Assembly: GCA_013151035.1 (NCBI GenBank)
Contig: JAADJB010000015.1
Span: 1-64,000, forward strand
DNA length: 64,000 nucleotides
Reading direction: 5' to 3'
Origin: Gammaproteobacteria bacterium
Lineage (GTDB): Bacteria; Pseudomonadota; Gammaproteobacteria; JAADJB01
Both the position numbers and the translations under genes were made by a program. Numbering within the stretch: position 1 is the stretch's first letter; the number at the start of each line of letters is the position of its first letter. This document shows, piece by piece, positions 13,641 through 56,271 of this stretch. The notes below the pieces were generated by a model that saw nothing but the letters and a program-made list of their open reading frames with translations, searched no databases and was not told the origin of the DNA.

Positions 13641-13754
13641 GAGATATGAATTGCGCTTCTCTACCAGAGACCCTTGCCCGCATGGACGCGGGCGTGGAGC
13701 CACCATGGATGGTTTCACGGCGTGTCTCTGGTAGAGAAGTGCAATTCATGTCTC
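13641..13754 (+). repeat. 114-bp hairpin element, copy 2 of 6
   Basis: The arms 13641-13671 and 13724-13754 pair over all 31 positions, with two G-U pairs. Inner hairpins are GCCCGC-ATGGAC-GCGGGC and ACCA-TGGA-TGGT. It lies between the kinase gene and panB. Confidence 0.92.
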
Positions 13755-16639: not shown

Positions 16640-16753
16640 GAGACAGGAATTATTCCTCTCTAACAGAGACCGTTGCCCGCATGGACGCGGGCATCGAGCC
16701 TACATGGATGTATTCACGGCGTGTCTCTGTTAGAGAGGCGTGATTCCTGTCTC
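16640..16753 (+). repeat. 114-bp hairpin element, copy 4 of 6
   Basis: The arms 16640-16670 and 16723-16753 pair with one mismatch and a few G-U pairs. Inner hairpins are GCCCGC-ATGGAC-GCGGGC and TACA-TGGA-TGTA. It sits between tRNA-Glu and the RDD gene, starting 52 bp after the tRNA. Confidence 0.92.
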
Positions 16754-51704: not shown

Positions 51705-51725
51705 GCATGATATACTTCGCAGCCT

Positions 51726-51755
51726 GTCTCCGTAGCTCAGCTGGATAGAGTATCT
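51726..51755 (+). pseudogene. Truncated tRNA-Arg: 5' 30 nt only
   Basis: GTCTCCGTAGCTCAGCTGGA and the following 10 nt match the intact tRNA-Arg(CCT) at 52978 with one mismatch (acceptor strand, D arm, start of the anticodon stem), then the sequence changes completely. The extended -10 upstream (TGATATACT at 51708-51716) also matches the one before the intact gene (TGATATAAT), so promoter and 5' half are duplicated. No 3' half follows, so it cannot be a functional tRNA. Confidence 0.85.
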
Positions 51756-51759
51756 ATTA

Positions 51760-52332
51760 TTATTCAAAAATGAATGGTGCAGTTGGATACTGACAATTAG
51801 GATTCGATTTATAAGTAAGCTGTTCAAGTAACACGGTTAGTATTTTAAAATGTGTGGATGGAGACGCTACTGCTATAGCATCAACTAGATCGATAAATGA
51901 GTGACCTGATAACTCTATCGGATTTAATATCTTTATCACGTTCAGTTCACCGTCCTCTCCATTCTCAAGCTTTCTATGTATCTCTGCACCATGCAATGCA
52001 GCAAAAGCTATAAGCAGTGCAATAGTAGCATTCTCATGATTAGTTACTTCCAACAAATCATCGGGAAGCACACCATTTGTATACTTAAACGCCTCTAAGA
52101 TAGGCTTATCTGAAACAAAATAGGTAACAAAGTTAGCTAACTTTTTGAATACACTAGCTTCATCAATTCCATCTTTATGAGGAAAATCACGCCTTATTCC
52201 TTGAGCAATCGTTCTGATCTTGGGAACATCAATCAACATTACATCTATACCAAAATCTGCTGCAAAGCCATCAATAAACGCTAAAATATTGGTGACATCG
52301 TGATCCGGCGTTTCATTAAACAAGAGTCTCAT
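51760..52332 (-). CDS. Unrecognised 190-residue protein of the tRNA-Arg island
   Basis: I do not recognise this protein. It is acidic to neutral, with no signal peptide or membrane helix, a probable mix of alpha helices and a beta start ('MRLLFNETPDHDVTNILAFI'), and a hydrophobic central stretch 'NATIALLIAFAALHGAEIHR'. It has no integrase, nuclease or helicase motif visible. It starts at an ATG with GGATGA upstream and stops within a few bases of the broken tRNA. It lies 70 bp downstream of the 67-residue gene, with a terminator-like hairpin between. Its placement in a small tRNA-bounded island suggests accessory, transferred DNA. Confidence 0.7.
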   Translation of the reverse strand: MRLLFNETPDHDVTNILAFIDGFAADFGIDVMLIDVPKIRTIAQGIRRDFPHKDGIDEASVFKKLANFVTYFVSDKPILEAFKYTNGVLPDDLLEVTNHENATIALLIAFAALHGAEIHRKLENGEDGELNVIKILNPIELSGHSFIDLVDAIAVASPSTHFKILTVLLEQLTYKSNPNCQYPTAPFIFE

Positions 52333-52355
52333 TTATTCATCCTTTTATTGCGAAC

Positions 52356-52385
52356 AAAAAAAACGCCCGTTAAGACGCTTTTTAT
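52356..52385 (-). terminator. Terminator-like hairpin with eight Ts
   Basis: On the minus strand AAAAGCGTCT and GGGCGTTTTT form an imperfect stem with G-U pairs, then TTTTTTTT. It lies between the two island genes, so the downstream 190-residue gene may be only partly co-transcribed. Confidence 0.45.
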
Positions 52386-52402
52386 TCGCCCAAAACTTTC
52401 CC

Positions 52403-52606
52403 TTAGCCAAACAAAGACGTTAATTGTCTAGCCGCAGCCTTACCAAGTTCTTCAACGTGACTTAAGCTTTCTACCTTACGAGCGACACTCTTAGCATTTG
52501 ATGCAACAAAAGACGGTGTTGTAGCTTCAATACTATCAGTTTCTCCAACTATTGTGCTTGGCTGAAACAAATACTCAAATGTCACTTTCCCATCTTCAAT
52601 TTTCAT
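52403..52606 (-). CDS. Unrecognised 67-residue protein of the tRNA-Arg island
   Basis: A small protein ('MKIEDGKVTFEYLFQPSTIV' then a Ser/Ala-rich helical second half 'SVARKVESLSHVEELGKAAA'). No family recognised. The ATG is preceded by CGGAG 9 nt upstream, a good ribosome site, which favours a real gene. Same strand as the 190-residue gene; the pair may work together. Confidence 0.6.
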   Translation of the reverse strand: MKIEDGKVTFEYLFQPSTIVGETDSIEATTPSFVASNAKSVARKVESLSHVEELGKAAARQLTSLFG

Positions 52607-52977
52607 TACTAGTTACTCCGTGTCGCTGAAAGTCTTAAATTAAATTCTGCATATTATTAGTGCCAACTAACTATCGTCAATGCCAGCATAACAAATACGG
52701 CGACGACTGTACAAGAAAACATCATTGATTAACAATATAAACCATTAATGCACCAATAAGAAAACATTATCGACAAAGCACCACATAACTTTAAAGATAA
52801 CCACACCACACAATACCCTTCAGTGATACAACCATACTTAACACACATAATACCGATACTGTAGTGCATTTTTCCAAAGTTCACAATCACCACATAGCCT
52901 CCAATAACACACCCTCAATTTCAATAAAAGCTTATATCTATCCCTAAATCCCTATGCTTGATATAATCCACGCTCTT
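52607..52977. other. AT-rich gene-free stretch with strong strand skew
   Basis: 371 bp with no open frame of note. The plus strand is rich in A and C and poor in G. It ends with an extended -10 (TGATATAAT, 52959-52967) that serves tRNA-Arg. No repeat or att-like sequence is visible beyond the tRNA halves. Confidence 0.6.
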
Positions 52978-53054
52978 GTCTCCGTAGCTCAGCTGGATAG
53001 AGTGTCTCCCTCCTAAGGAGAAAGTCGCAGGTTCGAATCCTGCCGGGGACACCA
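52978..53054 (+). tRNA. tRNA-Arg (anticodon CCT)
   Basis: A 77-nt cloverleaf with encoded CCA. The acceptor GTCTCCG pairs with CGGGGAC (one G-U), the anticodon stem TCTCC/GGAGA closes the loop CTCCTAA (anticodon CCT), and the T arm is GCAGG/CCTGC. Its 5' 30 nt are duplicated 1.25 kb upstream. Confidence 0.95.
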
Positions 53055-53786: not shown

Positions 53787-53805
53787 AGCGATACCGTTAA
53801 CTCAA

Positions 53806-53919
53806 GAGACATGGGTTGCTCTTCTCTCACAGAGACCGTCAGCCGCAGGGGTGCGGCTGTCGAGCCACCATGGATGGTTTCACGGCGTGTCTCTGTGAGA
53901 GAAGAGCAACCCATGTCTC
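53806..53919 (+). repeat. 114-bp hairpin element, copy 5 of 6
   Basis: The arms 53806-53836 and 53889-53919 are perfect 31/31 reverse complements. Inner hairpins are CAGCCGC-AGGGGT-GCGGCTG and ACCA-TGGA-TGGT. It lies 4 bp after the relA stop. Confidence 0.95.
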
Positions 53920-53923
53920 GATC

Positions 53924-56136: not shown

Positions 56137-56153
56137 CATTAAAATAACCACAA

Positions 56154-56267
56154 GAGTCAGGGATTGCTTTCCCTTAACAGAGACCGTTGCCCGCAGGGAT
56201 GCGGGCATCGAGCCTACATGGATGTATTCACGGCGCGTCTCTGTTAAGGGAGAGCAATCCCTGGCTC
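56154..56267 (+). repeat. 114-bp hairpin element, copy 6 of 6
   Basis: The arms 56154-56184 and 56237-56267 pair at all 31 positions, with two G-U pairs. Inner hairpins are GCCCGC-AGGGAT-GCGGGC and TACA-TGGA-TGTA. It lies 4 bp after the helicase stop and upstream of relA. Confidence 0.93.
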
Positions 56268-56271
56268 GATT

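Follow-up and report, generated by a model that had tools for sequence, protein, structure and literature searches.

A previously unnamed two-gene module lies in the window, the 64,000-nucleotide stretch of gammaproteobacterial DNA analysed here, between a broken and an intact copy of tRNA-Arg(CCT). The gene pair spreads horizontally, often on phages, and a hairpin is conserved between its small and large genes. The larger protein, of 190 residues, is likely to have the Doc/Fic (Fido) fold as judged from structural modelling. We give an even chance to the reading that the pair is a phage-derived, Phd-Doc-like cassette (toxin-antitoxin or phage-exclusion) with a replaced active site, left behind in a decayed tRNA island. 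The features of the segment are collected in Table 1.

Table 1 Features of the segment between the two tRNA-Arg(CCT) copies (positions in the window).
Feature	Position	Strand	Evidence
Extended -10 (TGATATACT), original tRNA promoter now headless, right after pilZ	51708..51716	+	Sequence; promoter scan 9/12
5' fragment of tRNA-Arg(CCT), positions 1 to ~30	51726..51755	+	Direct repeat
Large gene, 190 aa, predicted Doc (Fido) fold, no Fic catalytic motif	51760..52332	-	Homologues, AF2, Foldseek, hhalign
Terminator-like hairpin and U-run, weak stem here, between small and large gene	52350..52389	-	Gap comparison; fold energy
Small gene, 67 aa, conserved partner, antitoxin-like, promoter-proximal	52403..52606	-	Homologues upstream of large gene; mirror-tree
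Candidate promoter of the pair, TTGACG-16-AATAAT, 10/12	52653..52680	-	Consensus scan alone; region total not above chance
Extended -10 (TGATATAAT) of intact tRNA, within island	52959..52967	+	Sequence
Intact tRNA-Arg(CCT), end of island	52978..53054	+	ARAGORN; Rfam RF00005

The borders of the segment carry a 31-nt direct repeat (51725-51755 and 52977-53007), identical at 30 of 31 positions, well above the chance expectation. ARAGORN found a single intact tRNA-Arg(CCT), and this tRNA alone was recognised in an Rfam scan (RF00005, 67.8 bits). The left copy was not among the ARAGORN genes. It is identical with the intact copy at 29 of 30 positions and ends in the 5' strand of the anticodon stem, so that the anticodon is not reached. 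The intact gene is apparently the sole CCT copy in the 2.4-Mb genome, where the other three tRNA-Arg matches have the anticodons CCG, TCT and ACG. The GC content is 36-38% within the island and 42-48% outside. When 44 tyrosine recombinases were used as tblastn queries, no integrase remnant was detected in the island (the best match, over 16 residues, had an E of 0.014), and no recombinase ORF is present inside the 1.2 kb. The repeat, the ARAGORN result, the GC content and the tblastn search thus bear out the preliminary description of a broken and an intact tRNA-Arg(CCT) around 1.2 kb of AT-rich DNA with no integrase. Furthermore, the fragment and the intact gene lie in direct orientation with the 5' fragment upstream, the arrangement of 5'-fragment-type islands. 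Duplication of the 5' half had been called unusual; it is, yet it is a known minority pattern, seen in 159 Islander islands as against 3760 with 3' fragments (3919 in total), in a collection that discards islands shorter than 2 kb or without an integrase (PMC4383910).

The promoter had also been described as duplicated along with the 5' part of the tRNA, which proved wrong. The common element is the extended -10 alone (TGATATACT and TGATATAAT). The spacers from the -10 to the tRNA are unlike in sequence and offset by 1 nt in length, so that the two are distinct tRNA promoters and not copies of one block. Two short repeat pairs by the intact tRNA were considered as recombinase arm-site repeats and were unconvincing. 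Elsewhere in the window, an intergenic repeat of ~120 bp, built of inverted arms of 31 nt around a conserved middle of 52 nt (GGATGGTTTCACGGCGTG...), has full copies at 53803-53922 and 56151-56270 and single-segment matches at 13707-13734 and 16706-16733. Its arms differ between the full copies and stay 94-100% self-complementary, as in a MITE/REP-like hairpin element.

As to the origin of the layout, the chances are about even that a small integrative element entered tRNA-Arg(CCT) and decayed to the present segment, a reading that we rate above tandem duplication of the tRNA. In a genome of the same class (G002), a 5' fragment of tRNA-Arg(CCT), 44 nt long and still preceded by the original tRNA promoter, is followed by 2.7 kb of DNA and an intact tRNA. 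Besides a transglycosylase (PF19489), the insert encodes a tyrosine recombinase (PF00589) that starts 135 bp from the 5' end of the intact tRNA. Indeed, 37 viral contigs match the D-arm-to-anticodon signature of tRNA-Arg(CCT); in about ten of them the tRNA is cut off just past the anticodon loop, and several contigs with such a cut-off half have recombinase-like ORFs, recognised by motif reading, at 70-150 bp. These cut-off halves indicate that phages carry the 5' half of tRNA-Arg(CCT). Archaeal integrases of the pTN3 type use the 5' half of a tRNA, and the restored tRNA runs from the promoter of the element, a situation that is rare in bacteria (PMC8371274).

In such an event, a tyrosine recombinase would have exchanged strands within the anticodon stem-loop of tRNA-Arg(CCT). 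The present promoter and 5' half of the intact tRNA would have come with the element, and those of the original gene would have been stranded behind pilZ. The 190-aa gene has its stop codon 5 nt from where the fragment ends, as expected if a deletion trimmed the left side; a later deletion may have removed the recombinase and cut the left end back to this distance. Contrary to a clean recombinase product, the fragment in the window is without the anticodon loop that such a product should keep, and no trace of an integrase is left. We infer an integrase origin of the island.

Tandem duplication of tRNA-Arg(CCT) without an integrase, in which illegitimate or homologous recombination placed the gene pair between the two copies and broke one of them, is a less probable but serious alternative. 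It has precedents. In G218, two complete tRNA-Arg(CCT) genes stand 0.87 kb apart with a HicA-HicB pair between them and no integrase (L217, G218:C4, 3651-4601). In G114 (L222) and G346 (L223/L229), a 5' fragment that ends in the T loop lies 167 and 209 bp, respectively, upstream of the intact tRNA-Arg(CCT), and in G346 the two copies have upstream sequence in common. The fragment in the window likewise has a working-looking promoter of its own, and no integrase is present. Against this, the upstream sequences of the window copies are unrelated except for the -10, in contrast to G346, and G002 and the phage contigs show that recombinases do make such a layout at tRNA-Arg(CCT). The accessory island by integration that had been proposed at the outset gains from the G002 case with its integrase and from the phage contigs with the 5' half, while the tandem-copy alternative keeps its three precedents. 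Two further candidates were set aside: the tRNA pair of G016 is actually two different tRNA-Arg genes, and the 5' fragment of G025 belongs to a tRNA-Arg(CCG) 39 bp off and has no cargo.

Since the 67-aa and 190-aa ORFs are conserved elsewhere, they are real genes, and the two unrecognised minus-strand genes of the preliminary description were confirmed as such. Searches of Pfam, PHROGs, PADLOC, NCBIfam and PDB sequences with both proteins gave nothing significant. Relatives of the 190-aa protein occur in three of 369 genomes of the class besides its own (46, 39 and 32% identity). A genome-wide scan gave eight loci, two of which coincide with the class-genome loci; the hosts are Acidiferrobacteraceae, Neomegalonema, Rhodobacteraceae, Verrucomicrobiales, Ca. 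Ruthturnera, a sponge-symbiont Cycloclasticus, an uncultured gammaproteobacterium and Ca. Thiodubiliella. Eight viral contigs, some near-identical among themselves, also carry relatives. The homologues of the large gene, at 13 or more other loci, span Gammaproteobacteria, Alphaproteobacteria, Verrucomicrobiales and phage contigs. In a profile search of 399 genomes across the phylum, the window genome was the only positive, and no homologue was found in the plasmid and named-phage collections.

At nearly all loci, a gene of 59-76 aa related to the 67-aa gene lies directly upstream of the large gene on the same strand, with 32% identity in the best case (E 9e-11 for a single comparison). The small gene is highly divergent in Ca. 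Ruthturnera, and both genes appear broken in Ca. Thiodubiliella. The pairwise distances of the small and large proteins were correlated in a mirror-tree analysis (r = 0.89; none of 2000 permutations reached this value). The pair is thus rare and co-inherited, at about 14 other loci, several of them beside phage repressors or an integrase. Two other arrangements were observed. In Ca. Ruthturnera (L047, 4920-5657), a 245-aa ORF without a useful family match lies upstream of the divergent pair and starts like the neighbouring 75-aa protein (MKEIQKRF and MKKIQKKF). In L185 (G225:C27, 536-1755), an orphan small-gene homologue of 86 aa stands by a SocA_Panacea antitoxin-like gene and an unrecognised 124-aa partner.

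The pair was found between tRNA genes and tig (L043), between dnaJ and eno (G324), by leu genes (L048) and after mutS (L044). In phage-like contigs, it follows S24/HTH repressors or has an integrase nearby (L049, L053, L054, L056, L051 and L058); an S24/HTH repressor stands upstream of the pair in L053, L054 and L051, and an integrase is a neighbour in L058. In the tree, the 190-aa protein groups most closely with phage contig L051, at a modest support of 0.76. These scattered loci, the phage contigs and the position of L051 make up a horizontal, phage-linked pattern. Of the distribution that the preliminary description had named as contrary to its reading, namely non-tRNA loci with vertical descent, the non-tRNA loci were found and the vertical pattern was not. 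The proposed setting, that of a very small cassette for defence or fitness, is now better supported by the co-inheritance, the horizontal and phage-linked spread and the predicted Doc fold. The pair matched no PADLOC model of a known anti-phage defence system.

We compared the gaps between the small and large genes. A terminator-like hairpin followed by a T-run was observed in 13 of 14 gaps, where 0.89 (sd 0.89) were expected from dinucleotide shuffles; the count includes near-identical loci (L049 and L054), so that slightly fewer than 14 gaps are independent. With a looser test, 13 were observed and 2.8 expected, and the control, a 70-nt stretch preceding the small gene, had such a hairpin in 1 of 13 cases. 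The stems are unrelated in sequence between loci, and the counted gaps measure 42-140 nt. The exceptions are L046 and G324, the latter with a gap of 6 nt and excluded from the count. The gap in the window folds at -18.9 kcal/mol (z -3.2). Its hairpin is the weakest of the set, with a short stem and G-U pairs, and the stricter scan missed it. The large gene begins soon after the hairpin, so that read-through would be the simplest route to its expression. Most transcripts would then stop at the hairpin, a putative leaky intrinsic terminator, and the small protein would be in surplus.

An AlphaFold2 model of the 190-aa protein, built from 13 sequences, had a mean pLDDT of 90.8 and a pTM of 0.88. 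In Foldseek against the PDB, ranks 1-3 were all P1 Doc chains, with a probability of 0.96-0.97 yet an E of 0.20-0.34; TM(target) was 0.60-0.63, TM by query 0.42-0.44 and the rmsd about 8 Å. The remaining listed matches had a probability of 0.06 or less, and a fold search of BFVD with the model gave nothing credible. The Doc ranking agrees with an independent, sequence-based test. In hhalign, residues 13-77 of P0001 aligned to Doc 6-67, ending at the position of the catalytic His, with a score of 25.5. None of 200 column-shuffled Doc profiles reached this score (maximum 20.0), the reversed profile gave 14.0, and P was 0.003 for this one single comparison. The P1 Doc query had been verified by a 100% match to phage records. 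No Pfam, NCBIfam, PADLOC or PHROGs family backs the Doc assignment.

The Fic/Doc motif HxFx[DE][GA]Nx[KR] is absent in all 13 members of the family. The position of the catalytic His is taken by K, R, Q or A, among others, and about 20 residues are inserted before the invariant N101, which may correspond to the Asn of the Fic motif. The invariant or near-invariant residues are K63, K64, N101, S142, H144, D148, E170, Q171, Y174, N177 and Y182. The window genome (G000, 2.4 Mb) has nine Pfam Fic matches, on C8, C15, C18, C19, C30, C33, C45 and C53; about eight Pfam Fic/Doc matches exceed the cut-off, a large number for a genome of this size.

Structure prediction and profile search, which had been recommended for both proteins, gave a confident model with Doc on top for the large protein and a poor one for the small protein (pLDDT 65, C-terminal helix only). 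The small family has a conserved N-terminal FDNL block and a NAxGV motif, beyond which the C-terminus varies. Neither a Phd or FicA signature nor a Pfam antitoxin match was found in the small protein; the FicA inhibition motif [S/T]xxxE[G/N] is not conserved, with one chance match in 12. A scan of phage contigs for the small protein gave no usable result, the alignment being too divergent.

A predicted Doc-like fold without the catalytic residues, together with the conserved hairpin, makes it probable that the pair has a new active site and acts as a toxin-antitoxin-like or phage-exclusion module. With the small gene first and the Doc-fold gene second, the small protein in expected excess and carriage on phages and islands, the pair most plausibly works, by analogy, like a Phd-Doc or FicTA module; judged by their defining sequence motifs, it belongs to neither. 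The HicAB pair in a similar tRNA setting (G218) makes a toxin-antitoxin reading more natural, without proving it. What survives in the window would be a phage-type module of promoter, small gene, leaky terminator and large gene. The large protein would be a Fido fold with an insertion in place of the catalytic loop (HxFxDxNKR) and with a new set of invariant or near-invariant residues. The small protein probably holds it in check by binding, in the manner of Phd with Doc and FicA with FicT, and would thereby neutralise a toxic activity that may act in phage exclusion or in maintenance of the element. It is possible, if somewhat doubtful, that the pair represents the first of a new class of toxin-antitoxin or abortive-infection modules carried by phages. 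In such a class, a Fido-fold effector would have given up the Fic site of nucleotide transfer for a new site formed by residues such as S142/H144/D148 and E170/Q171/Y174, and would be held by an unrelated small partner in an excess set by the conserved terminator.

We think it unlikely that the small protein is instead a substrate, either a peptide precursor or a leader-bearing cargo, of a large protein acting as modifying enzyme or chaperone, with the hairpin securing substrate excess as in many peptide operons. The conserved FDNL block and NAxGV motif before a variable C-terminus, the hairpin after the small gene, the adjoining 245-aa ORF with its similar-looking start in Ca. Ruthturnera and the orphan small gene next to the SocA_Panacea gene would fit this explanation, but no core peptide, Gly-Gly site, transporter or protease is nearby, the pair is often alone, and the predicted Doc fold argues for something other than peptide modification. 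A module for phage superinfection exclusion or immunity that is not toxic in itself, which the position beside CI-type repressors recalls (L049, L053, L054 and L056, and near L051; compare rexAB of lambda), has a similarly low probability, the pair also standing alone among housekeeping genes (dnaJ-eno in G324, leu in L048, the tRNA cluster in L043), which is less expected for a pure immunity gene.

If the Phd-Doc-like reading is right, the Pfam, NCBIfam, PHROGs and PADLOC models miss a small family of phage-linked effector pairs, in which a Doc-like fold without Doc chemistry would be combined with a conserved terminator fixing the ratio of the two proteins. The window pair and the HicAB pair of G218 suggest tRNA-Arg(CCT) as a recurrent docking site for tiny two-gene modules, which fall under the size and integrase cut-offs of island finders.

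Among known systems, Phd-Doc of P1 shares with the pair the predicted fold, the order of a small and then a larger gene, the two-gene operon and carriage by temperate phages. The large protein differs in its length (190 aa, Doc 126 aa), in being without HxFxDxNKR, in the loop insertion of about 20 residues and in an extra conserved C-terminal part; the small protein is unrelated to Phd in sequence, and a terminator-like hairpin separates the genes. The class I FicT-FicA modules (VbhTA and EcFicTA) likewise have a small upstream partner and a larger one of Fido type. Degenerate Fic motifs are known (PMC5033356, also the source of the inhibition motif), whereas here the small protein is without a conserved [S/T]xxxE[G/N] and the large one without the Fic motif. 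Like the islands with 5' tDNA fragments (Islander and pTN3-type), the segment has the fragment upstream, the intact tRNA downstream in the same orientation, cargo between them and a promoter inside; unlike them, it measures 1.2 kb, has no integrase, and its fragment ends before the anticodon loop. The HicAB locus of G218 involves a different family, and both tRNA copies are complete there, whereas the tRNA is the same, the module again has two genes within less than 1.3 kb, and no integrase accompanies it.
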